Positions 30,430 to 59,745 of a stretch of DNA of 64,000 nucleotides are shown piece after piece. The translations under genes and the position numbers were made by a program. The stretch is from Jeotgalibacillus malaysiensis (GTDB lineage: Bacteria; Bacillota; Bacilli; Bacillales; Jeotgalibacillaceae), in assembly GCA_000818095.1 (NCBI GenBank), contig CP009416.1, positions 2,526,501-2,590,500 on the forward strand. Direction: 5' to 3'. Positions within the stretch are counted from its first letter, which is position 1. Each line of letters starts with the position of its first letter. The notes under the pieces were generated by a model. That model was not told where the DNA came from, made no database searches, and saw only the letters and a program-made list of their open reading frames with translations.

Positions 30430-30560
30430 CTACTTCAGTTTGTATGTTTCCCCGCTCAGGTTGTCGCGATACGCTCGGGGATTTGCACCACTCCCGCCCG
30501 CGGATGCACCAAACGACCGCAAAACTGTCGCTTTCACGTCCCGAACCTGCACATTTATCC
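30430..30560 (-). repeat. Family A intergenic repeat array (locus 1)
   Basis: Read on the minus strand this gap between clpP and crh shows the tandem 21-22 bp units found at four other loci: GGTGCAAATCCCCGAGCGTA, then TCGCGACAACCTGAGCGG, then ACATACAAACTG. The units are degenerate, sharing ACAAA followed by a C/G-rich part. Only one array is seen here, without the conserved linking block of the other loci. The ORFs crossing it are not conserved between loci. Confidence 0.6.
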
Positions 30561-30568
30561 CCGCCAAA

Positions 30569-30602
30569 TAAAAAAACTCTCCGGCACCATACCGGAGAGG
30601 TC
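30569..30602 (-). terminator. Terminator after crh
   Basis: Minus strand: CTCTCCGG pairs with CCGGAGAG around a TATGGTG loop, followed by TTTTTTTATTT. It ends the yvcI-rapZ-yvcK-whiA-crh operon. Confidence 0.88.
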
Positions 30603-30607
30603 GTTGT

Positions 30608-30865
30608 TTACTTCTCTTCTTCCACATACGCCGCAAGCGTTTGCATTGCTGCTTCTTCATCAGCACCGTCAGTGATAAGTGTGAAGCTTTCCCCTGAACT
30701 TAGCGCGAGGCTCATTAAGCCCATGATACTTTTGGCGTTTACTTTTTTGTTTTCTTTTTCAATGTAGACATCTGAAGAAAACTTTGTAGCTTCCTGAACA
30801 AACATGGATGCAGGACGTGCCTGCAATCCACTTTTTAACCTGACTGTTACTTCTTTTTGCTGCAT
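30608..30865 (-). CDS. crh: Crh, HPr-like catabolite repression protein
   Basis: 85 residues. The HPr active-site His15 is replaced by Gln (GLQARPAS), while the regulatory Ser46 is kept (AKSIMGLMSL). This is the definition of Crh. HPr kinase, encoded at 50,427, phosphorylates Ser46, and Crh-P then acts as a CcpA corepressor; free Crh has been reported to inhibit methylglyoxal synthase in B. subtilis. It is the last gene of its operon. Confidence 0.95.
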   Translation of the reverse strand: MQQKEVTVRLKSGLQARPASMFVQEATKFSSDVYIEKENKKVNAKSIMGLMSLALSSGESFTLITDGADEEAAMQTLAAYVEEEK

Positions 30866-30882
30866 CTGATCTCCTCCTGAAC

Positions 30883-31830
30883 TTAGTTTCCTACCATTTC
30901 ACCCTTGCGTAATTTTTCAGCAATCTGATCGATTTTTCTTAAGCGGTGATTGATTCCGGACTTGCTGACAGCGCCGCCGGAGACCATTTCGCCAAGTTCT
31001 TTTAACGTAACGTCCTGATAGGCAACTCTCAGTTCAGCGATTTCTCTGAGCTTATCAGGCAGAATACCAAGACCCGCAGTTCTTTCGATAAAGCGGATGT
31101 TTTCCACTTGTCTGAGTGCGGCTCCGATTGTTTTGTTAAGATTAGCGGTTTCACAATTGACGAGGCGGTTGACCGAGTTTCTCATATCTCTGACAATCCG
31201 TACGTCTTCAAAGCGGAGAAGTGCCTGGTGTGCACCAATCAGACTGAAAAACTCAGTGATTTTCTCAGCTTCTTTTAAATAGGTGATAAAGCCCTTCTTG
31301 CGCTCAATCGTCTTGCTGTTCAGATCGAACTGGTTCATCAGATTAGCAAGAGAGTCGTTATGTTCTTCATACATTGTGAAGATCTCGAGGTGGTATGATG
31401 AGGTTTCAGGGTTATTGACTGACCCGCCTGCAAGGAATGCACCTCTCAGATATGCACGCTGACAGCACTTTTTACCGATTAAGGCAGGTGTGACTTCGTG
31501 ATTCAGCTGAAAGCCTTCACCTAAAATGTTGAGGTTCTCTAAAATATCACGTGCCTGTTCAGCGATTCTGACGATATAGACGTTATTTTTCTTTAATCTC
31601 ATCTTTTTTCGCACGAGTAGTTCTACCTGTACGCTGTAATTCCTTTTAATCAATGTATAAATTCTGCGGGCGATTGCCGCATTCTCTGTCTGGATATTTA
31701 CAATCAGCACCCTGTTTGAAAAAGACAGTGATCCATTCATCCGGATCAGCGCAGACAATTCTGCTTTTGAGCAGCAATCATTTGCTTCTATCTGGGTGAG
31801 TTCTTTTTTCGTTTCTGACGCAAACGACAT
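30883..31830 (-). CDS. whiA: WhiA, DNA-binding regulator
   Basis: 315 residues: an N-terminal LAGLIDADG-homing-endonuclease-like domain without nuclease residues ([34 protein letters not shown]) and a C-terminal helix-turn-helix ([19 protein letters not shown]). WhiA affects cell division and chromosome segregation in Bacillus. The gene lies between yvcK and crh exactly as in B. subtilis. Confidence 0.96.
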
Positions 31831-31859
31831 GTGTCTTTTCCGCCTCCCTCTTTCACTTA

Positions 31860-32831
31860 CTACGCAAGCTGATCACGTGTTTCAGCCATTAAGCGGACAA
31901 CAATTTCTGCGACACGATCTGTATCATGACGAATGAGTCCATTTCGATTAATGATTATTTTATCATAAACGACCTGAAGTCCGAGTCCTTTGAGACGATC
32001 TACATCAAATTTTACGGGTTCCGCCATTTCTTTATCATAAAGTGAGCGGATCTCCGCCGGAACGTCTTCATTATTCACTAGGACGTAATCCATAAATTTC
32101 GCACCCATATGCTTGTAAATGGCTTCTACGTGCTGGGATGCAGTGTAATTCAGCGTCTCACCGGCCTGTGTCATCAGGTTACAGATATAGACTTTAGGCG
32201 CAGTGCTCTTTAATACGGCCTGACCAATCTCTTTTACAAGAAGATTTGGCAGAATGCTCGTATAAAGTGAGCCTGGACCTATAATAATCATATCGGCTTC
32301 TTCGATCGCTTCTATAGCCTGTGGCAAAGCTTTTACATGCTTCGGCGATAAAAATACGCGATCGATCTTCTTTCCGCTGAATGGAATTTTTGATTCTCCC
32401 TTGATAATTGAGCCGTCTTCCATTTGAGCGGACAGGACAATACTCTGGTTGGCTGAAGGAAGTACGCGACCTCTGACATTCAGCACTTTACTCATTTCTT
32501 CAACGCCATGCGCGAAGTCACCTGTGATTGATGTCATCGCTGCTATAATTAAATTCCCCAGCGAATGACCGCTTAATTCGTTTTTACTCGCAAATCTGTA
32601 TTGGAACATCTCTTCTACAAGCGGCTCGACGTCAGATAATGCAGCAATCACATTTCTGATATCACCCGGAGGCGGAATTTTCAGGTCATCTCTGATTCTG
32701 CCCGAGCTTCCTCCATCATCAGCCACTGTTACGATCGCTGTCAGATCAAGCGGATGATATTTAAGTCCGCGGAGCAGAACAGACAGGCCTGTCCCGCCCC
32801 CGATCACGACAACTTTACCTTTTTGAGTCAT
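31860..32831 (-). CDS. yvcK: YvcK/GlmR, cell-wall and central metabolism factor
   Basis: 323 residues with the UDP-sugar-binding [14 protein letters not shown] start and the [14 protein letters not shown] block of the CofD/YvcK fold. In Bacillus it binds UDP-GlcNAc and stimulates GlmS, supporting growth on gluconeogenic carbon sources. The start overlaps the rapZ stop by ATGA. The operon connects it with RapZ, another amino-sugar regulator. Confidence 0.95.
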
Positions 32832-33712
32832 TTTTTCGGAGCACCCTGCTTTTTATGAATATCACGGTGCGTAATCTGAGTGTGATAATCCTTGGCAAAT
32901 GCACGTGCAATTTCTTCTGTCAGCGCCACTGAACGGTGTTGACCGCCCGTGCATCCGATTGCAATCACAAGCTGACTTTTTCCTTCACGCTTATAATGAG
33001 GAAGCATGAATTGAAGGAGATCAATTGTCTTCTCCAGAAACTTCTTCGTCTCATTCCATTTCATTACATACTCAGATACTTCTTCATCCAGGCCTGTCTG
33101 GGGTCTCATATGATCAATGTAGTGTGGATTCGGCAGGAACCTTACATCAAATACAAGATCTGCATCAATCGGCAGCCCATGCTTGAATCCAAACGACATC
33201 ACATTTACGGTAAATAAAGACTGCTTATTCACTGAAAACTCCTGAAGAATTTTCTCACGCAGCTCTCTCGGTTTTAAATTAGATGTATTATAAATTGTCT
33301 GTGCGCGTCCCTTTAATTCAGACAGCAGCAGTCTCTCCTGCTTAATGCCTTCCATCGGCAACCCGGCAGGCGCAAGCGGGTGGGAACGCCTTGTTTCTTT
33401 ATAACGTCTCACAAGTGCCTGATCATCTGCTTCTAAAAACAGAATGCGCGGCTTCAGCGTTTCTTCATCATCAAACTGATCAAGCGCCTGAAAAAGAGAA
33501 TCAAAGAACTCTCTTCCTCTTAAATCCATAACGACTGCTACACGGTTCATCTTATCCCCTGATTCCTTCATCAGTTCAAGAAACTTCGGCAAAAGCGTCG
33601 GAGGCAGATTATCTACACAGAAAAAACCAAGGTCTTCAAAGCTTTGAATCGCAACTGTTTTCCCCGCTCCCGACATTCCCGTTATAATAACTAATTCCAT
33701 ATCTGTTGACAT
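32828..33712 (-). CDS. rapZ: RapZ/YvcJ nucleotide-binding protein
   Basis: 294 residues. The P-loop is GMSGAGKT (residues 12-19); the C-terminal domain has the conserved [13 protein letters not shown] signature. In Escherichia coli RapZ controls glmZ RNA decay; in B. subtilis YvcJ is an NTPase with effects on competence. ATG 33712 has GGGGGAG upstream. Confidence 0.95.
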
Positions 33713-33726
33713 AACGACACTCCCCC

Positions 33727-34185
33727 TCAGCTTGGATCCAGACGGTAAGATAACAGTTCAAAATCTTTTGTATAGGTGAAGGTGCCATAGATGACACCCT
33801 GTCCATGAATCACATACTCAAGAATATGGCGGTCACCTTCAGCCATATCAAGCGACTGAATCGCTTCAACCGGCTGCCACTGCAGAATTCCTTCCGGCGA
33901 CTCATCAAGGATCAATCCATCACCCTCAGTTGCAAGAAACGTAAACATCATCCACTCAGAAATGACTTCATTTCCTTCTTTTATAATGAAAGTAAAAATC
34001 CCTTTAATCTCAGGATTTTTCACATAAATCCCTGTTTCTTCACGATATTCTCTAATACAGGCATCCCTGATTGATTCACCCGGCTCCATTTTACCGCCCG
34101 GTGCAACCCACCAGTCTCTTCTCGGCTTTTGGAGAAGCAGCGCCTGATTATCTTTTATATATACACAATTCGTTATCCTCTGCAC
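33727..34185 (-). CDS. yvcI: Nudix hydrolase YvcI
   Basis: 152 residues from GTG 34185 with AGGTGA upstream. The Nudix box is complete between Gly31 and Ile53 (GKMEPGES, then REYREETGI). It probably hydrolyses a nucleoside diphosphate derivative; the substrate is not certain. It is the first gene of the operon that ends with crh. Confidence 0.88.
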
Positions 34186-34218
34186 GATATCACCTGCTCA
34201 TTTTTGCTCATTCATTTT

Positions 34219-34247
34219 ATTATACATGGTTTCACAGCCTCTCACAA
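34219..34247 (-). promoter_or_regulatory. Promoter of the yvcI-crh operon
   Basis: Minus strand: TTGTGA (34247-34242), 17 bp, TATAAT (34224-34219). The -10 box is perfect, the -35 weaker. It is the only well-formed sigma-A candidate between the upstream terminator and yvcI. Confidence 0.6.
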
Positions 34248-34303
34248 TGAAGCCGTACTGTCTCCTTCTCTATCTGTATGTAAATCTCCTTTATCCTATG
34301 AAA

Positions 34304-34340
34304 ACAAAAAAAGGGCACGGACATGTTCGGTGTCCGTGCC
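34304..34340 (-). terminator. Strong hairpin terminator upstream of yvcI
   Basis: Minus strand: GGCACGGACA pairs with TGTCCGTGCC around a 7-nt loop and is followed by CTTTTTTTG. No gene of that strand lies directly before it, because trxB already has a terminator near 34,800. It may end read-through or a small unseen transcript. Confidence 0.75.
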
Positions 34341-34371
34341 AAAGATATATACTAAAGGGGGTCAATTACTT

Positions 34372-34428
34372 ATGGTCTTACTATACCCATTAATTGTTGC
34401 ATGGCGGTTACAGTTTGGTAACGATTAG
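34372..34428 (+). CDS. Possible 18-residue hydrophobic peptide
   Basis: ATG 34372 with AAGGGGG ten bases upstream encodes MVLLYPLIVAWRLQFGND. The ribosome site is good, but there is no clear promoter and the ORF is very short. It lies between a strong hairpin and a family B palindrome. It could be chance. Confidence 0.2.
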   Translation: MVLLYPLIVAWRLQFGND

Positions 34429-34463
34429 ATAAAGATTTGGTTATTGATCATCAAATATGAAGC

Positions 34464-34588
34464 GTTGATCTACGCTGCAGGCGGACGCTTTCCGCGGGGA
34501 CGGCGCTGAGCCTCCTCAGGCTTCGCCTTGCGGGGTCTCAGCTGTCCGTCACATCCCGCTGGAGTCGCCGCCTTCCGCTCCGATCAAC
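34464..34588. repeat. Family B palindromic repeat, copy 1
   Basis: About 125 bp, GC-rich in AT-rich surroundings, ending in GTTGATC / GATCAAC. Inside are the shared blocks GGCGGACGCTTTCCGCGG, GAGCCTCCTCAGGC, GCGGGGTCTCAGCTGTCC and GGAGTCGCCGCCTTCCGC. The element can fold into one long branched hairpin. It is one of six copies in the window, all intergenic. Bases 34,589-34,784 hold nothing that I can identify. Confidence 0.8.
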
Positions 34589-34784
34589 TATGTGCAAGTA
34601 TGTAGATGGTTCGCAAAAATTAATCGTTTTTTGAAAAATAACCAAATTCGTGGCGGGTCCAATTACACAATCTCAGGGACCTCTCATAAAATCTCCATCA
34701 CCACCGTAGTAATCTTCTAAACAGCACAAGTAATTTCATGAACACCACTTATAATCTTCGGAACCCACCACACACAACACACTT

Positions 34785-34820
34785 ACAAAAAACAAAAACC
34801 CCTCCAACCAAGGAGAGGCT
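34785..34820 (-). terminator. trxB terminator
   Basis: Minus strand: CCTCTCC pairs with GGAGGGG around TTGGTT, followed by TTTTTGTTTTTTG. The family B element lies between trxB and this site. Confidence 0.75.
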
Positions 34821-34846
34821 CTAAGTTTGATCAGTAGTATATCCAA

Positions 34847-34974
34847 CTGGTGATTGGAACGGAGGACGGAGACTCCCGCCCCAGGAAAGGGACAGGTGAG
34901 ACCCCGCAGAGCGAAGCTCGAGGAGGCTCACCGCCCGGGGGCAGGAAAGCGTAGTCCTCCGTGGAAATCACCAG
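34847..34974. repeat. Family B palindromic repeat, copy 2
   Basis: 128 bp with terminal inverted repeats CTGGTGATT / AATCACCAG. The interior (GGTGAGACCCCGCAGAGCG, GAGGAGGCTCACC, GGAAAGCG) has the blocks of the family in opposite orientation to copy 1. It lies in the 3' untranslated part of trxB. Confidence 0.8.
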
Positions 34975-34998
34975 CGGTTGTTAAAGACGACTATTTAA

Positions 34999-35985
<987 letters not shown>

Positions 35986-36032
35986 CTACAATCTATCGTA
36001 ATCCAAGGTGTATAAATCGTCCAATCATCTGC

Positions 36033-37481
36033 TTATGGCAAGTATAATTCAAGTTCACGCTTATATCTCGCAAGCGTTCCGGGCGCAATACCGTATTTAG
36101 CAGCGATCTCTTTTTGTGTCAGCTTTGATCCTCTGACCTTGCGCCACAGGTACTCTACAGCTGCTGACAGAGCCTCTACATTTTGGAATGTATACCCGTC
36201 AACGGATCCGTGATAAACAATATGGAACCACATATAGAATAATCCCTGGTGTGCCTTTTCGTGCAGATCAAAGTGTTTTAAAAGGTCGCATGCAACCAGA
36301 TGAGCACGGCTGATCGGCGTATCCTGCGGGTCATTGGACTGTAGCATATGATAATATGCTTTTTCAATCGCTGTAAAGTATTCAGGTGCATCCTCTGTTA
36401 ACAAGCTGTCTGACTCCTGAATATCTTTAAACAAAATAAACATCCGCTCTTCAGGATAAAAAGTTTTCAGCTTTTCATCGTTACGGGACGTTGCACGGTT
36501 CCACGGCTCCTGGCCTGCTTTTTCAGGCTGCTCTTCAATGACGCGCTTCCACGCTTCTTCAGCCGCCTTTTTATAACCGGAATGCCACGCAGAATGCGAC
36601 AGCCAGTAATGAAAGCCGCTGTCCCCTTCGAATCCTTTTTTCGCAAGACTCTTTAGCCAGCCGTATGCCTGCTCATGTTTTCCGAGCAGAGCAAATGTTG
36701 CCCCGAGCTTAAAGCGATGTTCAATCAGAAACGGCCGCACAGTCTCAAGCGCTTTGACAAGAGCTTCAAGCTCCTTCGTGCGTCCCTGATAATGATAAAA
36801 TACCGCTAAATTACATAGCGCATGCAGATTTCCGGGATTTCGGTTCAGCACTTCAGTCAGAATTGCAGATGCCTGCTCTGTTTCTCCCTGATAAAAGTAG
36901 GCAAGTGCAAGGTTATTATAGGCTGACCAGTAATCCGGATAGCGTTCAATCACATCCTCAAGCACTTCAATCGCTTCCTTGAACTTCCCGTCAGCAAGCA
37001 GCTTTCCTGCTTTTTCCTGATGAATAATCAGGTCATCCTGTTCAAATTCATCATCAAAACCGTCTTCATCCTCAAACTGCAGCAGATCAAGCAGATCCTC
37101 TGCATCCTCTGAGAATTCACCATCCGGCTGATCCTGCAAATACGTATTTACATGGCGGTATGCCTCCTGGAACAAGCCAAGGTGCGCATAATTGTTTGCC
37201 ATAAAATAATGAACTTCTGTCATAGACGGATCGGTTGACTCACTTATACGCTTCAGACGTTCGTTAGACTTCTGGAAATGCCCAAGCTCCGTTTCAATCA
37301 TCGCAATCTGAAGTGCAATCATCGGCTCTTCCGGCTCAAGCTCGGCCGCTTTCCCTAAATATTTCACAGCCTTCTCAAGCTGACCCTTCTGATAAATGGC
37401 CATCCCTCTTTTATACAGACTCTCACCTGTCTGGGTAAATGGCACAAGCTTTCCTTTTTGATGATCCGATCCTTTTTTCAT
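36033..37481 (-). CDS. yvcD: TPR-repeat protein YvcD
   Basis: 482 residues with several tetratricopeptide repeats (first near residues 20-55, KRGMAIYQKGQLEKAVKYLG; more at about 160-230) and a central acidic stretch (EDEDGFDDEFEQDD). The C-terminus is a helix-turn-helix (LTQKEIAAKYGIAPGTLARY), which suggests DNA or RNA binding guided by protein contacts. Function unknown; position matches B. subtilis yvcD. Confidence 0.85.
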   Translation of the reverse strand: MKKGSDHQKGKLVPFTQTGESLYKRGMAIYQKGQLEKAVKYLGKAAELEPEEPMIALQIAMIETELGHFQKSNERLKRISESTDPSMTEVHYFMANNYAHLGLFQEAYRHVNTYLQDQPDGEFSEDAEDLLDLLQFEDEDGFDDEFEQDDLIIHQEKAGKLLADGKFKEAIEVLEDVIERYPDYWSAYNNLALAYFYQGETEQASAILTEVLNRNPGNLHALCNLAVFYHYQGRTKELEALVKALETVRPFLIEHRFKLGATFALLGKHEQAYGWLKSLAKKGFEGDSGFHYWLSHSAWHSGYKKAAEEAWKRVIEEQPEKAGQEPWNRATSRNDEKLKTFYPEERMFILFKDIQESDSLLTEDAPEYFTAIEKAYYHMLQSNDPQDTPISRAHLVACDLLKHFDLHEKAHQGLFYMWFHIVYHGSVDGYTFQNVEALSAAVEYLWRKVRGSKLTQKEIAAKYGIAPGTLARYKRELELYLP

Positions 37482-37589
37482 TTGTAGCCTCCGTACATTG
37501 TATTAACTAATCAATTCTAGCATGGATTTGGAAGTGTGGAAAGGGATGATTGCCACGGGGGGGTCGTGTGATTTTAGCTGAAAGAGGTC

Positions 37590-37738
37590 GACTGGTGCAA
37601 GGGTCACGGGGGATTTTGACAAATCTTGAGGCGATTGCGACAAACCAGCGTGGGATTGGTACAAATCCCCGGGTGTATCGCAACAAACCCGGCAAAAACA
37701 CCTACATCCACAACATAAATAACGATAAATCCACAACG
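37590..37738 (+). repeat. Family A intergenic repeat array (locus 2, first array)
   Basis: Tandem units on the + strand: TTTTGACAAATCTTGAGGCG, TTGCGACAAACCAGCGTGGG, TTGGTACAAATCCCCGGGTG, TATCGCAACAAACCCGGC, each starting 21-22 bp after the last. The array ends in AACACCTACATCCACAAC and ATAAATAACGATAAATCC, a tail also present at the other loci. Confidence 0.75.
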
Positions 37739-37751
37739 CCAGCTCTGCATG

Positions 37752-37797
37752 CACTTTGGTAACAGGCTTTTAGTGTCTTAAAGGCATGAAGAGGGTG
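37752..37797 (+). repeat. Conserved linking block between two arrays (locus 2)
   Basis: CACTTTGGTAACA followed by GGCTTTTAGTGTCTTAAAGG and CATGAAGAGGGTG. Nearly the same block lies at 59,552-59,608 and, inverted, at 45,329-45,378, each time between two family A arrays. It therefore belongs to the element. Confidence 0.75.
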
Positions 37798-37839
37798 TGG
37801 CTGGAAACCAGTGACAAGCGCTATTCACACAAATGGCGA

Positions 37840-37945
37840 GAGAATACAGGCAAACTTGGCCGGGAATGGTACAAATCTCCGGGTGTATCGCGACAAACCA
37901 AACGAAAACACGTACATCTCCAGTAAAAATAGCAACATTCCACAA
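37840..37945 (+). repeat. Family A intergenic repeat array (locus 2, second array)
   Basis: Units ACAGGCAAACTTGGCCGGGA, TGGTACAAATCTCCGGGTG, TATCGCGACAAACC, then the tail AACACGTACATCTCCAG and AAAAATAGCAACATTCC. It abuts the his operon terminator. Confidence 0.75.
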
Positions 37946-37975
37946 AAAAACACCCGCTCCAAAAAGGAACGGGCA
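37943..37975 (-). terminator. his operon terminator
   Basis: Minus strand: CCCGTTCC pairs with GGAGCGGG around TTTTT, then TGTTTTTTTG. It lies just after hisIE. Confidence 0.85.
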
Positions 37976-37981
37976 CTTCAA

Positions 37982-38614
37982 TTATTTCGGTCGATTATGA
38001 CGTTCTTCAAGCACGCCCATTACATCTGCAAGCGGCAGCTTCTGCTCGCGAAGCAGCACGAGTGTGTGATACAGCAGATCCGCTGTTTCCCACTTCAGCT
38101 CTTCTTTATCACGGTTTTTCGCTGCGATAATGACTTCAGCTGACTCTTCACCTACTTTTTTCAGGATCTTATCAACGCCTTCTTCAAAAAGATACGTTGT
38201 ATAAGCGCCTTCCGGACGTTCTTCATCGCGTGCTGCAATCAGACTTTCAAGCACTGAGAGAATCTGCGTTCCGACAGCTTTATCATCTGATTCATACACT
38301 TTTTCATTGAAGCATGAACGCTCACCAGTATGGCACGCGGGTCCTGCAGGTTTTACACGGACAACGAGTGAATCTCCGTCGCAGTCAAGTGTCATGTCGA
38401 CGATCTTCTGCGTGTTGCCGCTTGTTGCTCCCTTATGCCAAAGCTCCTGGCGTGAGCGGCTGTAAAACCACGTTTCGCCGGTTTCAGCTGACTTTTTAAA
38501 TGACTCTTCATTCATATACGCTACTGTCAGGACTTCTCCGGTTGATGCATCCTGCACCACTGCCGGGACTAATCCTTTTTCATCGAAGCGAATGTTCTCT
38601 GTATTAATTGTCAT
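37982..38614 (-). CDS. hisI: Bifunctional phosphoribosyl-AMP cyclohydrolase / phosphoribosyl-ATP pyrophosphatase
   Basis: 210 residues. The N-terminal HisI part has the metal-binding motifs (LDCDGDS and CHTGERSC). The C-terminal HisE part (residues 115-210) has [13 protein letters not shown] and the [12 protein letters not shown] helix. It performs steps 2 and 3 of histidine synthesis. The start overlaps the hisF stop by 4 bases. Confidence 0.96.
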
Positions 38615-39369
38615 CTTACATTCACTCCTTCATTTCTTAAATGTGCTTTAACTTCTTTCACGCTTGTTTCTTCATAGTGGAAAATGGATGCTGCGAGTGC
38701 GGCATCTGCTTTGCCATCTGTAAAAATCTCAGTAAAGTGCTCACTGCCACCCGCGCCGCCTGAAGCGATCACCGGAATATTGACTGCTTCACTCACTGCT
38801 TTTGTCAGTTCAACATTAAAGCCTGACTTTTCACCATCGCGATCCATTGACGTTAAAAGGATCTCTCCTGCACCAAGTGATTCCGCTTCTTTGACCCAGT
38901 CAATCACAAGTCTCTCAGTCGGCTTGCGGCCGCCGTGCGTGTAAACGCGCCACGTACCTGCTTCCTCGTCCCATTTCGCATCGACTGCAACGACGATACA
39001 CTGTGTTCCAAAGTATTCTGCACCTTCCCGGATCAGCTCAGGACGCAGGACTGCTGCTGTGTTAAGTGACACTTTGTCAGCTCCCGCGCGGAGAATCCGC
39101 TTCATATCTTCAAGTGCGTTAATTCCGCCGCCTACTGTAAATGGAATCGCAAGCTCTGCTGCAACACCCTGCACGACATCCACCATCGTTTTACGGCCTT
39201 CATGTGATGCTGAAATATCAAGAAACACAAGCTCATCTGCACCCTGCTGATCGTAAGCACGTGCAAGTTCAACCGGATCCCCTGCGTCGCGAAGCTCTAC
39301 AAACTGGATTCCTTTTACCACGCGGCCCTCTTTTACATCAAGACATGGAATAATCCGTTTTGTCAGCAT
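38611..39369 (-). CDS. hisF: Imidazole glycerol phosphate synthase cyclase subunit
   Basis: 252 residues from ATG 39369 (GAGGAG upstream; a GTG one codon earlier is less likely). A TIM barrel with [12 protein letters not shown] at the start and the phosphate sites FTVGGGI and ASGGAGG. It closes the imidazole ring with ammonia delivered by HisH. The start overlaps the hisA stop by one base. Confidence 0.97.
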
Positions 39370-41320: not shown

Positions 41321-41361
41321 TTGTGACACTCCTTTTAGTCTGTATGGCAAGCTGTAAGGCG

Positions 41362-41488
41362 GCTGATGATTGGAGCTCCAGGGGGACGCTTTCCGTGGCC
41401 GGGCGGTGAGCCAGCAGGCTTCGCCATGCTCTGTCTCACCTGTCCCTTCCTGCCACAGGAGTCGCCCCCTTCCGCTCCAATCATCAGC
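41362..41488. repeat. Family B palindromic repeat, copy 3 (hisD-hisB gap)
   Basis: 127 bp with perfect 15-bp terminal inverted repeats GCTGATGATTGGAGC / GCTCCAATCATCAGC. The interior shows GGGGGACGCTTTCCG, GGTGAGCC, GTCTCACCTGTCC and GAGTCGCCCCCTTCC. It occupies the 281-base gap between hisD and hisB, where neighbouring his genes otherwise overlap. Confidence 0.88.
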
Positions 41489-43033: not shown

Positions 43034-43051
43034 AGTGCAAAAGTTCCAATA

Positions 43052-45189: not shown

Positions 45190-45300
45190 GTGAAGATGTT
45201 GCTGTTTTTGCTGGAGTTGTTGTGGGTTCTCTTTGAATTGTAGCGATACACCCCGAAAGTTGTCGCAGTTTGTTTCAAGAATGTTGTAATCATAAGAGTC
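45190..45300 (-). repeat. Family A intergenic repeat array (locus 3, inner array)
   Basis: On the minus strand: AACTGCGACAACTTTCGGGG, TGTATCGCTACAATTCAAAG, then a tail CAACAACTCCAGCAAAAACA / GCAACATC like those of locus 2. Degenerate but with the same order of blocks. The gap 45,017-45,189 before it holds nothing else I can identify. Confidence 0.65.
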
Positions 45301-45328: not shown

Positions 45329-45378
45329 ACTCCCCCCTCTTGATGCCTTTAGGAGATCAAAAGACTGTTGTTCAAATG
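45329..45378 (-). repeat. Conserved linking block (locus 3)
   Basis: Minus strand: CATTTGAACAACAGTCTTTT, GATCTCCTAAAGGCATC, AAGAGGGGGG. It is related to the blocks at 37,752 and 59,552 and again lies between two arrays. Confidence 0.65.
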
Positions 45379-45402
45379 CATTAAGAGTAGATGTCACCAT
45401 TA

Positions 45403-45512
45403 TGTGCTAAATTGTACCTATCTCTATCGAAATTGTAGTAGTTTATCTTCAGGATGTCCCGATACGCCAGGGAGTTTGTCTGTATTCCATGCCAAGTTGT
45501 AGCTGTCACCCG
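45403..45512 (-). repeat. Family A intergenic repeat array (locus 3, outer array)
   Basis: Minus strand units: ACAGCTACAACTTGGCATGG, ATACAGACAAACTCCCTGGC, TATCGGGACATCCTG, ACTACTACAATTTCG, TAGGTACAATTTAGC, each about 20-22 bp apart. This is the most degenerate copy. Confidence 0.6.
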
Positions 45513-47469: not shown

Positions 47470-47470
47470 T

Positions 47471-50411: not shown

Positions 50412-50426
50412 AATGTTTCCTCCTGA

Positions 50427-51362: not shown

Positions 51363-51524
51363 CATGACCCTCCCTGCTTATCTCACATACAGTCTATTGT
51401 AGCACTTTGAAAAATGAAGCACTACATTAGAAAACCGAAACATTTTTGAAAAGGTGTCTGATTCAATGCGCTTATACGATCTCTTTCATGAAGACCCAAT
51501 CCATTTTAAAAAAGGAGAATCATC

Positions 51525-52184
51525 ATGCCAATTGTATGTATTGACGCAGGACACAGCTATAATACGCCCGGTAAACGGAGTCCCGATGGAATGAATGAAT
51601 ACGCATTTAACAAAGCAGCTGCTTTAGCTGCCAAAAAAGTACTGCTCCAGGCTGGTATCACAGTCCTTACACCGCATCGCGATGACCAGGACGTCCCGCT
51701 TGTTGCAAGAACAGATCTCGCTAACAACGGCCGCGCAGATCTCTATATTTCTATTCACGCAAATGCCTTCGGCGGATCGATATGGAACGGCGTTCAGGGA
51801 ATCGAAACGTATATCCATCCGCTTCATTCAAGTGAGGAAAAGAATCTCGCACAAACGATTCACCAACAACTGATTAACAGTACAAAACGACCCGACAGAG
51901 GTGTGAAAACAGCTGACTTCCACGTACTGCGCGAAACTAAAATGCCAGCAGTGCTCGTCGAATGCGGCTTCATGACCAATCGTGAGGAAAAGCAGCTGCT
52001 TGCAAGTGAGTCGTATAGAAAAACTTGCGGAGAAGCGATCGCAGCTGGTGTATTGACCTATCTTGGGAAATCAATTCAGCAAACATATTTTGTTCAAACC
52101 GGCGCTTTTTCTAAAAAAGAAAATGCTGAAAAGCAGGCAGCCGCGCTTAAGAAAGCAGGGTTCGAAGCAATTATCAAAATGTAA
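51525..52184 (+). CDS. N-acetylmuramoyl-L-alanine amidase with C-terminal SPOR-like segment
   Basis: 219 residues. Amidase_3 domain at residues 1-180, with zinc ligands His10 (DAGH), Glu25 and His79 (ISIHANAF) and the catalytic Glu in VLVECGFMTN. The last 35 residues (TYFVQTGAFSKKENAEKQAA onward) are a half SPOR module for denuded glycan binding. There is no signal peptide, as in CwlC-type amidases released by cell lysis, for example in mother-cell lysis. AAAGGAGA precedes ATG 51525. Confidence 0.88.
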   Translation: MPIVCIDAGHSYNTPGKRSPDGMNEYAFNKAAALAAKKVLLQAGITVLTPHRDDQDVPLVARTDLANNGRADLYISIHANAFGGSIWNGVQGIETYIHPLHSSEEKNLAQTIHQQLINSTKRPDRGVKTADFHVLRETKMPAVLVECGFMTNREEKQLLASESYRKTCGEAIAAGVLTYLGKSIQQTYFVQTGAFSKKENAEKQAAALKKAGFEAIIKM

Positions 52185-52193
52185 TACGCACCA

Positions 52194-52235
52194 AAAAGAC
52201 GCCCGGGGTTTTCATACCCCTGACGTCTTTTTAAT
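52194..52235. terminator. Bidirectional terminator of the amidase and the small membrane gene
   Basis: AAAAAGACG-CCCGGGG pairs with CCCCTG-ACGTCTTTTT; T-tracts on both strands. It overlaps the end of the membrane-protein gene at 52,231. Confidence 0.8.
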
Positions 52236-52503
52236 TTGCATTCGATACTTCCGGATTCTGTTTTCCTGAAGAAAATCTCAGCTTCAGGCCAATTGCCAAA
52301 ATCGCAATGGAGATCAGCAGGCTGATGCCCCCTACTCCCCAATTGAAAATCAGCAGAATCCATTTAAACAAGCCCATAATATCAGTACTCTGCGTAAAGA
52401 GTGCCAGCACTACGAACAGCACGCCTGTGCCAAGAAATGCCGCACCAACCGTACTAAAACCAAACCACATAATCCGGTTAATAAACGTCTCCATCTGCCT
52501 CAC
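52231..52503 (-). CDS. Small two-helix membrane protein
   Basis: 90 residues with membrane helices at about 16-37 (STVGAAFLGTGVLFVVLALF) and 47-72 (IFNWGVGGISLLISIAILAI), and a short charged tail. No family recognised. Its location near yvlB suggests a cell-envelope role, as inference only. Confidence 0.65.
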   Translation of the reverse strand: MRQMETFINRIMWFGFSTVGAAFLGTGVLFVVLALFTQSTDIMGLFKWILLIFNWGVGGISLLISIAILAIGLKLRFSSGKQNPEVSNAN

Positions 52504-52600
52504 CCGCCTTATGTATTTATTGTACTATACCATGAAGCGGGGGTTGGGAAACATTTTTTGTGAAGTGACGTGCGGGTGGACTGCGTTACTGAGGCGGGGC

Positions 52601-52748
52601 GGAATCTTACAAGTGGATGATGGGAAGGCGACAAACCGGGCGTGGGATAGGGACATACCGGCTGGGGATTGCGACAAATTCCCGGGTGTATCGCGACAAA
52701 CCGGCGGATGACTGATACAAATCTCCACACAATTGGTACAATCACCCC
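52601..52748 (+). repeat. Family A intergenic repeat array (locus 4)
   Basis: Units on the + strand: AGGCGACAAACCGGGCGTGG, TAGGGACATACCGGCTGGGG, TTGCGACAAATTCCCGGG, TGTATCGCGACAAACCGGCG, TGATACAAATCTCCACAC, TGGTACAATCACCCC. The 21-22 bp spacing holds across at least six units. Only one array and no linking block is found here. Confidence 0.75.
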
Positions 52749-52780
52749 ACCAAAACCCCCTCACTCCAAAAATACAAAAC

Positions 52781-52818
52781 AGCCCAACGCGCTCGTCTGG
52801 GGGGACGCGCATTGGGCT
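52781..52818. terminator. yvlB terminator
   Basis: AGCCCAACGCGC pairs with GCGCATTGGGCT (one G-T pair) around a 13-base loop. T-tracts follow on both strands (GTTTTTAAA on +, GTTTTGTATTTTT on -). It ends yvlB on the minus strand. Confidence 0.82.
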
Positions 52819-52862
52819 GTTTTTAAATGTGTGAATCCTGGTCATTTAATTAGACGAATTGT

Positions 52863-54131
52863 TTATGCGTTCGTTTCATTCTTTTTTGAATAAGATTTAA
52901 CCGTGACTGCTCCGGTTTTTGCATCTGCTGTGATATAAAGCTTTGATGCACCTTCACGGTCTTTTCTGAAATTCAGTCTGCGTTGCATCATTTCCTCGCG
53001 CTCTTCTAAATGGTCCATTTCATGGAAGTCCACTTTCAGTCTCCCGAAGTTGGTTCTGAGCGTACCATCAAGTGACACTGATTCAGGTACATTGATTTCA
53101 ATTGGACCTGCGAGTGATTTAGCTTCGATGCGTCTCGCTGATGAACTTGATGTGCTGCAGACAATCTTGCCGTTTACAGACTGTGCATCAATTTCATCGA
53201 GCGCACCCTCTACATTTACCTTCCCATTAACCGATTCTGCTTCAATCAGATCAGCGCGCGTATTTTCAACGTTAATGCCGCCATTAGCCGTTTCAAGCTC
53301 AGCTTTTTCAACAAGCATATTAGAAAGCTCAATTTTTCCGTTGGCTGTACGGACTTTGACTTTATTCACGTTACCGCCTTCAGACTGAAATTTCCCATTA
53401 AACAGACGGATATCCCATCTTTCATAACTTGCTTTAGGTACGTAAAGGACAGTATCCAGGCTCATCATCTTCAGGTCTGATACAAAGCGCAGTTTCTTAA
53501 AGTTTGTGTTAAAAATCACTGAATCCTTCAGCTGCTGCTTCGCTTTTAGTTCATCATCTGATCTGAACACTTTTACATTACATTCAGCTCTGACAAAATC
53601 TTCATCCCATGGTCGGATCGTCAGCTTACCGTTTGAAATGCTTGCTTCAATATCGATCAGTTCAGCTTTTTCAGACTCAAAAACGTGCTTGAATTCGAGT
53701 GATGGTCCCATGTTGAATTCAAGGTCCAGCCCTTTCACTTTTTCAAACGCAGTCTGGACAAAGTCTGTCAGCTTGTCTTTTTGCTGCTGGCGCTTATGCT
53801 TCTTAGTCTGCTCAGCTGAAAATTCCGATGCTTTTTTCTCAATTGTGCCGAAGAGATCATTGATCATTTCATCAAGATTAAACGGAAACTCTTTTTTCTG
53901 ACTGCCCTGACTGCCCGATCCACTGTGTGACTCGCTGTGTGAGCTGCTGTCTGACTGGTGCGATGAGCGGCTCTGTTGTTCATAAGTGCTTTCTTTATGA
54001 GCAGAAGAAGATGAGCTCTCTGTTGATTTGGAACCGTCTTTTTCAAGCGCTTCAAGCAACGTTAATGCTTCAGTAGCCGAAATAGTTCCCTTTTCTACCA
54101 TGCTTAAAATTCTCTTGCGTTCGTTTTCCAT
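52863..54131 (-). CDS. yvlB: YvlB/LiaX-like DUF4097 protein
   Basis: 422 residues from ATG 54131 (AGAGGAG upstream). The N-terminus (ENERKRILSMVEKGTISATEALTLLEALEKDG) is the SHOCT-like helical domain of YvlB/LiaX. A Ser/His-rich linker lies at residues 45-85. The rest is a beta-helix-like DUF4097 domain with repeated short strands (SVNGKVNVEG, SVNGKIV). In Bacillus it belongs to the envelope-stress-responsive yvlABCD operon; its exact role is unknown. Confidence 0.88.
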   Translation of the reverse strand: MENERKRILSMVEKGTISATEALTLLEALEKDGSKSTESSSSSAHKESTYEQQSRSSHQSDSSSHSESHSGSGSQGSQKKEFPFNLDEMINDLFGTIEKKASEFSAEQTKKHKRQQQKDKLTDFVQTAFEKVKGLDLEFNMGPSLEFKHVFESEKAELIDIEASISNGKLTIRPWDEDFVRAECNVKVFRSDDELKAKQQLKDSVIFNTNFKKLRFVSDLKMMSLDTVLYVPKASYERWDIRLFNGKFQSEGGNVNKVKVRTANGKIELSNMLVEKAELETANGGINVENTRADLIEAESVNGKVNVEGALDEIDAQSVNGKIVCSTSSSSARRIEAKSLAGPIEINVPESVSLDGTLRTNFGRLKVDFHEMDHLEEREEMMQRRLNFRKDREGASKLYITADAKTGAVTVKSYSKKNETNA

Positions 54132-54357
54132 GTATTTGACACTCTCCTCTAGTTTGAAATTGTCTCTACAAAAGTGAACGTGAACTAGTAACCATTGAGC
54201 GATCGGCAGACAGTCCGCCAATCCGCTCAATTCAAAAAGTATTTACTAATTGTACGGGTCAATCAAATAAAAGTTTCATTTGATTTAAGCATGACAGAAA
54301 ATCCGGAGCAGACCACCCGTCTCAGGACTGATATTGCGCTAAAGCCAGAGGACGATT

Positions 54358-57240
54358 TTAGACGTTTACCTTCTCTCCAGTACGCTCAGCCATTCTTTCT
54401 TCCATCCGGCTGCGATCACGCTCAAGAACCGGCTTCAGATAGCTGCCTGTATAAGATTCCTGCACCTCAGCAATATCTTCAGGTGTGCCGCATGCAAGAA
54501 TCGTTCCTCCGCGGTCACCGCCTTCAGGACCAAGGTCAATGATGTAATCAGATGCTTTGATAATATCGAGGTTGTGCTCGATAATCAGCACTGTGTCACC
54601 GTTGTCTACTAAGCGCTGCAATACATTTAGCAGTCTTGAAATATCATCTACATGAAGACCTGTTGTCGGCTCGTCAAGAATATACATAGACTTTCCATTT
54701 GAACGTCTGTGAAGTTCTGAAGCAAGCTTCACACGCTGGGCTTCACCACCGGAAAGCGTTGTGGCAGGTTGTCCGAGTGTAATATAACCAAGTCCAACGT
54801 CAACAATTGTCTGCAGCTTACGGCTGATCTTAGGAATGTTTTCAAAGAATGAAAGACCATCTTCTACTGTCATTTCAAGTACGTCAGCAATATTTTTACC
54901 TTTATATTTCACTTCAAGCGTTTCGCGATTATAGCGCTTCCCGTGACAGACTTCACACGGTACGTAGACATCCGGCAGGAAGTGCATTTCGATTTTAATA
55001 ATTCCGTCCCCGCGGCAGGCTTCACAGCGTCCACCTTTTACGTTAAAGCTGAAGCGGCCTTTTTTATAGCCGCGCACTTTTGCTTCATTTGTGGTCGCGA
55101 ATACATCACGGATATTATCAAATACACCTGTGTAAGTTGCAGGGTTTGAACGCGGCGTTCTGCCGATTGGTGACTGGTCGATATCAATTACTTTTTCAAG
55201 ATGATCGATTCCTTTAATCTCTTTATGCTCTCCTGGCTTTACCTTCGAACGGTGAAGCTTTTGAGCAAGAGATTTGTGTAAAATGCTGTTGATCAATGTA
55301 CTTTTCCCTGAACCTGATACACCTGTTACTGATGTAAAGACACCGAGTGGGATCTTCACGTTGACATCCTTCAGGTTATTGGCTTTCGCACCTTTTATTT
55401 CAAGCTGTCTCTTTTTATCAGGCTTTCTGCGTTCAGCAGGAAGAGGGATAAATTTCTTTCCTGAGAGATACTGTCCTGTCAGTGATTTCGTACTTTTCAT
55501 CACCTGCTTCGGCGTGCCGGCAGCAACAATTTCACCGCCGTGTACACCCGCTCCAGGCCCAACATCGATCAGATAATCAGCAGCAAGCATCGTATCTTCA
55601 TCGTGTTCAACAACGATCAGCGTATTTCCGATATCACGCATATTTTTTAGTGTATCTATCAGACGGTCATTATCGCGCTGGTGTAAGCCGATTGAAGGTT
55701 CATCCAGAATATAGAGAACACCTGTCAACTGTGAACCGATCTGAGTTGCGAGTCTGATCCGCTGTGCTTCCCCGCCAGAGAGTGTGCCGGCTGCACGACT
55801 TAAAGTTAAATAATCTAGACCAACATTTACAAGGAACGTCAAACGCTCATTAATTTCTCTTAAAATCAGTCTTGCGATCTGCATTTCTTTTTCAGTCAGG
55901 TCAACATGATTAAAAAATTCCTTCGCTTCTTCAATTGAAAATGAAGTAACGTGTCCAATATGAAGATCCTGTACTTTTACAGCAAGGCTCTCACGCTTCA
56001 GACGGTGACCTTCACATGTCGGACAGTGGTGCTGCGCCATATATTTCTGCATCTGCTCACGGATATAATCCGAGCTCGTTTCACGAAAGCGTCTTTCAAC
56101 GTTTTTCAGCACACCTTCAAAATTGATCTTATTTTCACGGACCTGTCCAAAATCATTTTCATAGCGGAAATAGATTTTGTCACGGCCGGATCCTTTTAGA
56201 ATTTTATCCATCTTTTTCTTAGGAATATCCTTCACGGGAATATCCATATCAATATCATAATGGTCGCACACCGCTTTTAGCATAGACGGGTAGTACTGGG
56301 AGCTGGTCGGTTCCCATGGTGCGATCGCATGCTCGTTCAGCGTGCGGCTCCAGTCCGGAATCACCAGTTCAAGATCCACCTCAAGCTTCGTGCCAAGCCC
56401 ATCACATTCAGGGCATGCACCAAAAGGCGAGTTAAATGAAAACATGCGCGGCTCAAGCTCTTCAATTGAAAAGCCGCAAATTGGGCAGGCATGATGTTCG
56501 TTAAATTTGATTTCCTCTTCACCAATAACGTCGACAATGACATTGCCATCGCCCAGCTTCAGCGCAGCTTCCAGTGAATCTGCAAGACGTGCTTCAGCAC
56601 CTTCTTTTACAACAATCCGGTCAATAATGACTTCAATTGAATGCTTTTTGTTTTTATCAAGTTCAATTTCATCACCGATATCCATCATTTCACCGTTTAC
56701 ACGAACGCGGACATACCCCTGCTTCTTCACATCTTCAAGAATTTTCGCATGAGTACCTTTACGACCTGAGACAAGCGGTGATAACACTTGAAGCTTAGTG
56801 CGTTCAGGGTATTCATAAATGCGGTCGACCATCTGTTCAACTGTCTGAGATGTAATTTCAATTCCGTGATCAGGACAAACCGGCCTGCCGACACGCGCAA
56901 ATAACAGTCGGAGATAGTCATAAATTTCAGTAACCGTTCCGACTGTTGAACGCGGGTTTCTGCTGGTTGTTTTCTGATCAATCGAAATGGCTGGTGACAA
57001 CCCTTCAATTGTATCAACATCAGGCTTATCCATTTGACCGAGGAATTGTCTTGCATAAGCAGAGAGCGATTCAACGTATCGTCTCTGCCCTTCCGCATAA
57101 ATCGTGTCAAACGCGAGCGATGATTTACCTGATCCTGAAAGGCCTGTCATCACAACGAGTTTGTCACGCGGAATTTTTATATCAACATTCTTTAAGTTAT
57201 GAGCGCGGGCGCCCTGTATAATTATCTGATCTTTACCCAT
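54358..57240 (-). CDS. uvrA: Excinuclease ABC subunit A
   Basis: 960 residues, full length. Two ABC ATPase modules: first P-loop GLSGSGKS (33-40), second GVSGSGKS (about 640-647), and two LSGGEAQR signatures. The zinc sites CPICG and CEACRGDG / CEVCHGKR are present. It scans DNA with UvrB for bulky lesions. The gene follows uvrB after 7 bases. Confidence 0.98.
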
Positions 57241-57247
57241 AGTCAGG

Positions 57248-59230
57248 TCATCCTTCCGCTTTCAGTTCTAAAACGAGGTCACGAAGCTCCGCCGCTTTTT
57301 CAAAGTCAAGCGCACGTGCTGCTTCCTTCATTTCAATTTCCATAGACTCAATGACTTTCGCACGTTCTTTCTTAGACAGATTCTTCATCTGCTCAGCAGG
57401 TGATACGTATTCTTCCGCTTCTTCAACCGCATGTGTCGCACGGATTACATCACGGATTTCTTTATTGATTGTAACCGGCGTAATACCGTGTTCTTCATTA
57501 TAAGCAATCTGCTTTTCACGTCTTCTCGCTGTCTCATCCATCGCACGCTGCATGGAATCAGTTACTTTATCTGCATATAAAATAACGTGTCCATTTGAGT
57601 TACGTGCAGCACGACCAATCGTCTGAATGAGTGAACGGTCAGAACGCAGGAAGCCCTCTTTATCTGCATCCAGAATCGTAATAAGCGATACTTCCGGAAT
57701 ATCAAGCCCTTCCCGTAAAAGGTTGATCCCGATCAAGACGTCATATTTACCAATCCGGAGGTCTCTAATAATCTCAATCCGCTCAAGCGTCTTTACTTCT
57801 GAATGAAGGTATTGAACCTTAATGCCGATTTCTTTCAGATAATCTGTCAGATCCTCTGACATTTTCTTCGTTAAAGTTGTGATCAGCGTCCGCTCATTTT
57901 TCGCAATTCGATCCTGAATTTCACCAAGCAGGTCATCAATCTGACCTTCACTCGGACGGATTTCAACGGTTGGATCAAGCAGCCCTGTCGGACGAATGAT
58001 CTGTTCAACCATTTCATCTGTATGATCTATTTCATATGGACCCGGCGTCGCTGATACATAAATGGCATTATGCACGTGCTTTTCGAATTCCTCAAATTTT
58101 AATGGGCGGTTATCCATCGCTGACGGCAGACGGAATCCGTGATCCACAAGCACTTTTTTACGTGCCTGGTCTCCGTTATACATTCCGCGAATCTGGGGAA
58201 GCGTCACGTGAGATTCATCAATGACTAGTAGAAAATCATCCGGGAAATAATCAAGGAGCGTATAAGGTGTCGCACCTGCTTCACGCAGCGTCAGATGTCT
58301 TGAATAGTTCTCAATCCCGGAGCAAAAGCCCATTTCTCTCATCATTTCAAGATCATAGCGCGTTCGCTGTTCGAGGCGCTGCGCTTCAAGCAGCTTATCT
58401 TCCTCTTTTAAAATTTTCAGCTGTTCTTCAAGCTCCTTTTCAATGTTTTCAATCGCTACGCGCATCTTTTCTTCACGGGTTACGAAGTGGGATGCCGGAA
58501 ATACTGCCACATGATCGCGATCACCAAGGATTTCGCCTGTCAGCGCATCTACCATTCTGATCCGGTCAATCTCATCACCAAAAAACTCAACGCGAATACA
58601 GTGCTCATCGTTTTTAGCAGGGAAAATTTCAACCACATCACCTCTAACACGGAATGTTCCGCGCGTAAAAGCTATATCGTTGCGTTCATACTGGATATCA
58701 ACGAGCCTTCTGAGCAGCTGATTTCGCTCAATTTCCATCCCGACACGGAGTGAAACAACAAGCTCTTTATATTCTTCAGGAGAACCCAGCCCGTAAATAC
58801 ATGAAACAGACGAGATAATAATGACATCATCACGCTCAAACAGGGAAGATGTCGCTGAGTGACGCAGCTTATCAATTTCATCATTGATACTTGCGTCTTT
58901 TTCTATAAATGTATCTGTCTGAGGCACATAGGCTTCAGGCTGATAATAATCATAATAGCTGACAAAATATTCTACAGCATTGTCCGGAAAAAACTCTTTA
59001 AACTCACTGTAAAGCTGTCCGGCAAGCGTTTTGTTATGGGCAATGACCAGCGTTGGGCGCTTTACTTCCTGTACAACGTTCGAAACCGTAAAGGTCTTCC
59101 CCGTACCAGTCGCACCAAGCAAAGTCTGATGCCGCTTCTGCTTCTCCACACCTTCTACAAGCTTCTTAATTGCAGCAGGCTGATCCCCCGCCGGCTGATA
59201 TTTTGACTTCAAATCAAATTCCTGCACCAT
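57248..59230 (-). CDS. uvrB: Excinuclease ABC subunit B
   Basis: 660 residues. Walker A GATGTGKT (39-46), the beta-hairpin region [24 protein letters not shown] helicase motif II, and a C-terminal UVR motif that binds UvrC. It verifies damage after UvrA. A LexA-like box lies 142 bp upstream of the start. Confidence 0.98.
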
Positions 59231-59371
59231 CTATTCAACGCCTCCTAAAAATCTTTCCGATAAAACCTTCTTCTATATTCATACCCTTTATATTGAAATG
59301 AAACAGGGTTTCAGGCAAATTAATTGTCTCAACTAGTTTACCACCATGAGATCAAAAAGAACAGTAAAAAG

Positions 59372-59385
59372 CGAACATACATTCT
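59372..59385. promoter_or_regulatory. LexA (SOS) box upstream of uvrBA
   Basis: CGAACATACATTCT matches the Bacillus SOS box (CGAACRNRYGTTCG type) with mismatches confined to its right half. SOS control of uvrBA is established in B. subtilis. I could not place the promoter with confidence. Confidence 0.55.
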
Positions 59386-59411
59386 TAGAGTGTGTTTTGG
59401 TAAGGGAGTGT

Positions 59412-59535
59412 GGGTGATTGATACATATTGTTGAGGAATTGATTCATATTCAGGCATGGACAGGTGCAAACCACCGGGTGTATCGCTACAAACTCAGCTG
59501 GGATTGATACATATCCAGCATAAAAAGCGACAATT
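59412..59535 (+). repeat. Family A intergenic repeat array (locus 5, first array)
   Basis: Units: GTGATTGATACATATTGTTG, GAATTGATTCATATTCAGGC, GACAGGTGCAAACCACCGGG, TGTATCGCTACAAACTCAGC, GGGATTGATACATATCC, then the tail CAGCATAAAAAGCGACAATT. The array lies in the uvrB-csbA gap. Confidence 0.75.
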
Positions 59536-59551
59536 GTGAAGATCCGCCGCC

Positions 59552-59608
59552 CCACTTTGATGAACTTAAGTAACTGGCTTTTAGTTTCTTAAGGGCATGA
59601 AGAGGGTG
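59552..59608 (+). repeat. Conserved linking block (locus 5)
   Basis: CACTTTGATGAACTTAAGTA, ACTGGCTTTTAGTTTCTTAA, GGGCATGAAGAGGGTG: about 90 percent like the block at 37,752 over its last 36 bases, again between two arrays. Confidence 0.75.
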
Positions 59609-59637
59609 AGGTGCAGGTCGAGTATGGCAGTTTGAGA

Positions 59638-59745
59638 GTGGGATTAATACATATCCGGGCATGGACAGGTGCAAATCACCGGGTGTATCGCTACAAACTC
59701 AGTTGGGATTGATACATATCCAGCATAAAAAGCGACAATTGCACC
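59638..59745 (+). repeat. Family A intergenic repeat array (locus 5, second array)
   Basis: An almost exact copy of the last 86 bases of the first array (59,450-59,535), with only two or three differences over the shared part from GGCATGGACAGGTGCAAA to AAAAGCGACAATTG. A recent local duplication within the element. Confidence 0.78.

Follow-up and report, generated by a model that had tools for sequence, protein, structure and literature searches.

What are the short phased repeats that stand between operons at five places in a 64,000-nucleotide stretch of the Jeotgalibacillus malaysiensis chromosome (contig CP009416.1, positions 2,526,501 to 2,590,500; hereafter the window), and what keeps them there? 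A first-pass annotation had noticed these tandem arrays and proposed nucleoid or chromosome-organization sites, a structured RNA or a mobile extragenic element. Our results suggest that each array is a row of about six putative sites for one sequence-specific DNA-binding protein, perhaps marking chromosomal territory, a reading to which we give a probability of about one half. Its observed basis is the 21/22-bp phase of the units, a conserved core (an A, with ACA six bases on), inherited positions and a one-base switch that runs through the whole genome between species.

Phased arrays in the window and the genome

Arrays are present at all five loci, where R1, a sequence-only array profile built from 35 of 39 arrays, gave eight strong matches (expect value, E, 8e-23 to 6e-14). 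Seven of the eight window arrays sat in the alignment of the profile, which flatters their scores; the eighth, at 30418-30514 on the minus strand, was outside it and yet reached 48 bits (E 5.7e-14). The pattern GGGTGTATCGCNACAAA with up to three mismatches matched 7 times in the window versus 0.51 expected from shuffles, and CSGGKGTATCGCNACAAA with up to two mismatches 39 times in the J. malaysiensis (own) genome versus 0 for the reversed pattern. The unit described earlier, ACAAA-N-CC-CGGGTG-TATCGCNACAAA, proved to span two adjoining units where these are 22 bp apart; the unit itself is approximately GRRATTGCGACAAATCC, about 21 bp long, with the core A-N5-ACA in a position weight matrix (PWM) of 188 units. 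A unit PWM trained on 24 own segments found 177 units in those segments, versus 2.45 in mononucleotide shuffles.

In these 24 segments all unit steps of up to 32 bp were 21 bp (89) or 22 bp (44), with no other value. When 38 own arrays were cut at the same distances from the GGGTG unit, their conservation profile showed a common register from about −60 to +60; the 22-bp step lies directly before the GGGTGTATCGC unit, and a few arrays have further 22-bp steps. The steps strengthen the earlier proposal of helical phasing and, together with the concerted switch described below, that of the predicted protein binding.

Scanning the own genome with R1 gave 56 matches at E ≤ 0.1, all on contig C1, of which 52 were below 1e-6; the other four were dropped from the placement counts. 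For the annotation, a scan returning just the seven arrays it listed, or similarity no better than in shuffled sequence, would have counted against the family; the scan instead returned 52 strong matches at 34 loci on the chromosome, C1. The same scan gave no match on C2, the 603,070-bp replicon; the megaplasmid pJeoMA of J. malaysiensis has 603,070 bp (PMC5027565). At 16 of the 34 loci two or more matches lie within 1 kb, with the arrays in the same direction. In many of these paired loci an imperfect dyad of ~50 bp separates two arrays of the same direction, and within several of them the array halves are near-identical. The pairs noted earlier at 37.6/37.8, 45.2/45.4 and 59.4/59.6 kb are thus real, although each pair is one composite element around an imperfect dyad. 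The statement that arrays never lie inside a gene held for the loci that were read, a narrower claim than the genome-wide one.

A concerted base change between species

Own arrays were compared with those of the congener G008 at 17 of 18 loci with matching flanks (L022 lies inside the locus of L010), omitting arrays with fewer than 60 aligned bases. Core identity was high (539/580). As the base after ACAA (the fifth of ACAAn), 24 of 150 own units have C or G versus 110 of 142 G008 units, and all 17 loci shift the same way (sign test 1.5e-5; a Fisher p of 2e-27 for the counts treats linked units as independent). At this base orthologous sites agree in 20/135 cases (0.15), versus 0.42 between loci in the own genome and 0.38 in G008. 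Spacers behave in the opposite way, with 352/679 (0.52) agreement at orthologous sites versus 0.40 (own) and 0.39 (G008) between loci. Locus history is retained in the spacers and overwritten in the unit code. A second change concerns the third base of ACA, which is A in 77 of 77 own units versus 29 of 49 G006 units at seven shared loci; G011 leans the way of G006, with three shared loci and few units.

Co-evolution of many sites with one putative trans-acting DNA-binding protein accounts best for the switch. The words change together between species, which suggests a fast-evolving candidate protein that would read them.

Inherited positions and placement on the chromosome

We compared the flanks of 27 own loci with the array loci of four relatives (25 of G008, fewer of G006, G011 and G007). 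At 18 of the 27 the flanks match a G008 array locus; for L003 and L005 the matching array locus is in another relative, giving 20 of 27; two low-score matches (L001, L011) were not counted. Since the flanks match array loci of relatives, the arrays are old at their sites. Sites that match between species do not support current activity of a mobile extragenic element, as had been proposed; a mobile origin is weighed below.

For placement C1 was treated as the chromosome; its origin was set at the start, where a gene read as dnaA lies at 523, and its terminus opposite. GC skew, from sparse samples, changes sign between 1.05 and 1.75 Mb and is near zero at 1.4 Mb and also at 0.35 Mb. The 34 own loci span −1.191 to +0.919 Mb from dnaA with a half-chromosome of 1.758 Mb, leaving 0.92-2.33 Mb, opposite dnaA, without an R1 array; the probability that all 34 would fall within the observed maximum distance is 1.8e-6. 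Comparable restriction recurred in some closed genomes with arrays of other units, namely G237 (P 1.9e-4; its main unit has 14 loci, from −1.213 to +1.247 out of 2.296 Mb), G146 (11 loci, to 1.283 of 2.155 Mb; P 3.3e-3), G263 (8 loci, to 1.187 of about 2.2 Mb; P 7e-3) and G236 (10 loci, to 0.981 of about 2.0 Mb; P 8e-4). Here G146 and G263 represent one genus, and rounded values were used for the lengths of G263, G291 and the G236 chromosome. Rows dropped from placement were 474516 and 3116877 (G237), 761307 and 1209970 (G146), 2305911 (G263), 367959 and 3430484 (G291), and the plus-strand echoes of minus-strand arrays in G236. Array strand equals replichore at 14/14 loci in G237, 10/10 in G236, 8/11 in G146 and 5/8 in G263. 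Replichore polarity was rejected as a general rule, being complete in G237 and G236 and absent in the own genome.

Arrays across the order

Within the genus, R1 matched G006 (31), G007 (7), G008 (63) and G011 (14), was weak in G004 and G009 (2 each) and had no match in five further genomes. Among 29 genomes of other families it matched one, G019. Both G004 and G009 carry a variant unit, GAAACRRTACA. In G019 (C55, L166:10350-11870) a 73-unit array of GGCACATACCCG-type units, related to the own unit, with 47 steps of 21 bp and 17 of 20 bp, lies between a small open reading frame (ORF) and one that by eye resembles alkaline phosphatase.

A looser pattern, ACAW four times at 21 bp, matched 228 of 397 genomes of the order, coding repeats included. 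Reading of the matches showed genome-specific units in at least 13 genomes of eight families (G004, G009, G005, G019, G237, G146, G263, G291 with two types, G236, G288, G095, G046 and G239). Within one set of 30 genomes, four-fold repetition of the ACA core gave 925 matches at 21 bp versus 21 at 24 bp, counted with overlaps within arrays; 25 of the 30 had been chosen for high 21-bp counts, and the comparison varies the period with the ACA core fixed. The reversed-pattern control of the order scan was not clean, as its matches in G005, G046 and G239 are arrays of a different unit, and the 24-bp period took its place. Of 118 other genomes of the phylum, 5 had matches to a five-fold pattern, by eye at low-complexity or coding-like repeats only; this pattern misses the own arrays too, which makes its negatives weak. 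In genome_contigs one exact pattern matched a single record, of J. salarius. A phage or plasmid origin was tried and rejected: IMG/VR had no match to that same exact pattern, and PLSDB and INPHARED none to one 401-bp element, in collections that may omit records of this genome.

Several variants were seen along the way. Relatives of G237 (L245, L247, L248) have, by eye, arrays of ~25-bp period with the core CAACAGTCAAA where G237 has its 21-bp array, behind a gene that we take to encode flotillin; the array period itself, and the core, may thus vary between species. A second unit type (TTTATGGGAACATTCTC, 21 bp) occurs in G237 at C1:3116877-3116964, 2.04 Mb from the origin and near the terminus. 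At G263:C1:475089-475467, and at similar places in G263 and G146, about five units form a 104-bp higher-order tandem repeat. Long arrays of units like GCTTGCTACACC, exactly 21 bp, are found at G046:C2:430762-431164 and G239:C4:477360-477699.

Weighing the explanations

Several observations weigh against a protein that marks chromosomal territory from these arrays. The own loci are clustered, and merging at 60 kb leaves 11 clusters with a placement P of 0.014, a correction that covers the own genome. The proposed chromosome-organization role is compatible with the restriction to −1.19 to +0.92 Mb and weaker with merged clusters. The own-genome scan scored 150 of 894 first-look candidates, and weak arrays elsewhere may have escaped it. 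Placement in G237 drops to P 0.17 once its array of another unit is added, and arrays in G291 come near the terminus (type A to 2.163 and type B to 2.338 of about 2.45 Mb; Kolmogorov-Smirnov p 0.58 for type B). Strand agrees with replichore at just 16 of 34 own loci. Arrays can also be lost: by eye, in the 900 bp upstream of uvrB in 12 members of the genus, arrays stand in the own genome and G008 only, G011 and G007 have about one unit and the other eight relatives none. Because the patterns used across the order required ACA and 21 bp, the features shared there are partly imposed, and the arrays may or may not be related by descent. Moreover, synteny is more stable on the origin side of chromosomes, and old arrays retained there could mimic a chromosomal role, which is a live alternative.

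Relics of mobile elements would account for much of the layout. The units would be transposase-binding sites of multi-site transposon ends, spread in an ancestor and now decaying behind genes; Tn7-like ends have a similar architecture, with TnsB sites of ACA core about 20-22 bp apart. The dispersed copies behind genes, the array-dyad-array composites with near-identical halves at several loci and the loss of arrays at some loci all fit. We nevertheless consider such an origin unlikely, as the flanks match between species, paired arrays are direct rather than inverted, and no transposase was recognized by eye among the ORFs in 20 kb around the long G019 array; nor should decay keep cores while spacers drift, or switch one base at 17 of 17 loci. 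Less probable again is a topological or insulating element at 3' ends, like the bacterial interspersed mosaic elements (BIMEs) for gyrase, in which wrapped DNA behind operons relaxes supercoils or blocks read-through. Gene context speaks for it, with 17 co-directional, 5 convergent and 1 divergent among 23 classifiable own loci and 13 of 14 G237 arrays downstream of and sense to an ORF, as does the gyrase wrap, which is close to about 125 bp in helical register. Species-specific base preferences, however, are not expected of gyrase, 5 of the 17 co-directional own loci are antisense, and the units show no consistent palindromic pairing.

If there were no binder, ectopic gene conversion in short tracts, or else biased mutation, would have to keep the units of one genome alike, and the near-identical array pairs within loci do show local duplication or conversion. 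We regard this as improbable, as conversion should homogenize spacers too, whereas these agree better at the same locus in two species (0.52) than between loci (0.40), and tracts of a few bases would be needed at each of more than 100 units. A structured RNA of tandem mini-hairpins (GGATT-GCGACA-AATCC) plus dyad, one of the original proposals, is barely credible. At one locus the fold is better than in shuffles (z −2.3 on the plus and −3.1 on the minus strand), and of the six unit positions in the mini-hairpin register two exceed shuffles in pairing (z 3.7 and 2.3; 28 one-per-locus arrays), but the other four lie at z −0.4 to 0.1 in the same arrays, and the mini-hairpins were rejected on this ground. 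The suggested covariation check likewise gave no support: 20 dyad copies had 76.3% of cells paired versus 76.5% in shuffles, and 9 two-sided changes versus 8.7. Arrays occur in both orientations relative to genes, and Rfam at its gathering score listed tRNA alone in the window.

Comparison with known systems

Plasmid origins have iterons, direct repeats of about 20 bp that keep helical phase and lie next to a dyad, and the arrays resemble them in their direct-repeat phase (21-bp steps 89 times, 22-bp steps 44 times). Unlike iterons, they occupy dozens of chromosomal loci with no match on the 603-kb replicon, and no rep gene of an iteron origin was found among ten scanned window neighbours. Tn7-like ends are inverted around cargo, unlike the direct paired arrays, whose flanks match between species and beside which, where arrays were read, no transposase was recognized.

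Bacillus subtilis has about 70 dispersed chromosomal Noc-binding sites (NBS), with a terminus region without Noc (PMC4726725). The arrays are likewise dispersed sites of a (here putative) sequence-specific protein and may resemble NBS in being terminus-poor, but NBS are single 14-bp palindromes and the arrays 21-bp direct repeats with species-specific units. Terminus avoidance as for NBS was seen in the own genome, G146, G263, G236 and the main unit of G237, and not in G291 or in G237 with its odd array. The palindromic NBS consensus is ATTTCCCGGGAAAT; the array consensus, a direct repeat, does not match it and shares just CCCGGG at the 22-bp junction, a comparison of consensus sequences in which the genome was not searched for NBS.

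BldC, a MerR-like filament former, binds as head-to-tail oligomers on direct repeats that vary in number (PMC5859096). The arrays would suit similar head-to-tail reading, but have 21 bp per unit instead of 9 bp per subunit and lie mostly downstream of genes instead of at regulated promoters. Beggiatoaceae genomes each hold many intergenic groups of TAACTGA, with two to six direct repeats in a group (PMC4679880), which is alike in kind; the repeats are heptamers, particularly upstream of start codons and of one word across species, unlike our 21-bp phased units that differ between species. Repetitive extragenic palindromic (REP) sequences are palindromes in alternating orientation (PMC2817692), and REPs and BIMEs are, like the arrays, dispersed intergenic composite elements, but the array units are direct and show neither consistent pairing nor palindromes in alternating orientation. 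Every system compared differs from the arrays in a defining feature.

A putative nucleoprotein filament

A sequence-specific DNA-binding protein is our preferred reading. With sites two helical turns apart, protein units would stack head-to-tail on one DNA face, presumably cooperatively, and the resulting nucleoprotein filament would be directional and short, about 125 bp. Such filaments may mark territory on the chromosome outside the terminus region, much like Noc sites, and this step is the weakest; the marks would let the nucleoid or the cell cycle tell origin-side from terminus-side DNA, and it is a nucleoid or cell-cycle role that we infer for the arrays. More tentatively, and with the odds against it, Bacillales may possess an unnamed chromosomal addressing system, in which quickly evolving DNA binders from one protein family, with a ~21-bp dialect in each species, build filaments in helical phase at some dozens of inherited sites between genes, mostly origin-side, so that the chromosome arms would have a coordinate for segregation, division or sporulation. 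Searches of open-access PMC papers, covering titles and abstract openings and leaving subscription papers outside, showed no description of arrays of this kind. If the proposal holds, an order of well-studied bacteria has chromosomal nucleoprotein sites new to the open literature searched, and their recognition code changes as a whole between sister species. The before and after of that change would lie at the same loci, giving a direct way to find the protein and to test origin-side marking.

Gene context and features of the window

By their ORFs, 23 of 25 own loci could be classified, after ORFs overlapping an array were set aside before choosing neighbours and convergent loci were recounted from rows: 12 are co-directional sense, 5 co-directional antisense, 5 convergent and 1 divergent. 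Three of the 13 sense arrays of G237 lie between convergent ORFs; at its locus L180 an opposite 180-aa ORF on the left leaves the context class unclear. At least one of six G146 loci is antisense to both neighbours.

Ten window neighbours were scanned, which identified clpP, an HPr-like gene, hisIE, hisZ and uvrB; the others had below-cutoff matches to TPR, PPIase, amidase, LiaX and nucleotidase models. None of the shared neighbours of array loci pointed to a trans-acting gene. Three cross-genus locus pairs (L005/L143, L024/L150, L077/L112) have both flanking genes matching, with no chance rate computed, and we do not claim the same chromosomal addresses across genera.

Table 1. Array and dyad positions in the window (numbered from its first letter)
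Feature	Position	Strand	Remarks
21/22-bp phased array	30418..30514	-	between clpP and crh/HPr-like gene (convergent); weakest of eight; 48 bits
Composite element, first array	37630..37730	+	between TPR gene and hisIE; 76.3 bits
Imperfect dyad between two arrays	37743..37794	+	from alignment
Composite element, second array, same orientation	37841..37939	+	74.2 bits
Composite-element array upstream of hisZ	45194..45292	-	60.2 bits
Imperfect dyad between two arrays	45337..45387	-	from alignment
Composite-element array (hisZ element)	45410..45511	-	55.8 bits; adjoins terminator-like hairpin 45565-45536 (-)
Single array, no dyad seen	52599..52742	+	52643-52742 strong, 75.2 bits
First array upstream of uvrB	59413..59535	+	59451-59535 strong, 64.0 bits
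Imperfect dyad between two arrays	59554..59604	+	from alignment
Second uvrB-side array, much like the first	59639..59740	+	73.7 bits; end adjoins terminator-like hairpin (by eye)

Two of the arrays begin with weak extra units, at 52599-52642 (5.7 bits, E 0.86) and 59413-59448 (5.8 bits, E 0.82). A terminator-like hairpin was seen by eye near one end of each of the five window loci; the second array of the hisIE element lies a few bases ahead of the A-run of the hisIE hairpin. A terminator scan listed the hairpin at 45565-45536 and missed two other by-eye hairpins in its range, with a total of 14 versus 12.8 in shuffles.

Other repeats accompany the arrays. A different dispersed intergenic repeat (GTCAGCTCTGACGGGCATAAG...CCCGAGGAGCTAGCGCC) lies beside an array at L001:1180-1400; L011 and L084 have it too. 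Another repeat, also dispersed and with GC-rich arms (CGCTTTCC..., CTCACCTGTC), was seen at L022:1180-1350 and upstream of uvrB in L236 and L237; it stands next to an array, or replaces one in other Jeotgalibacillus species.

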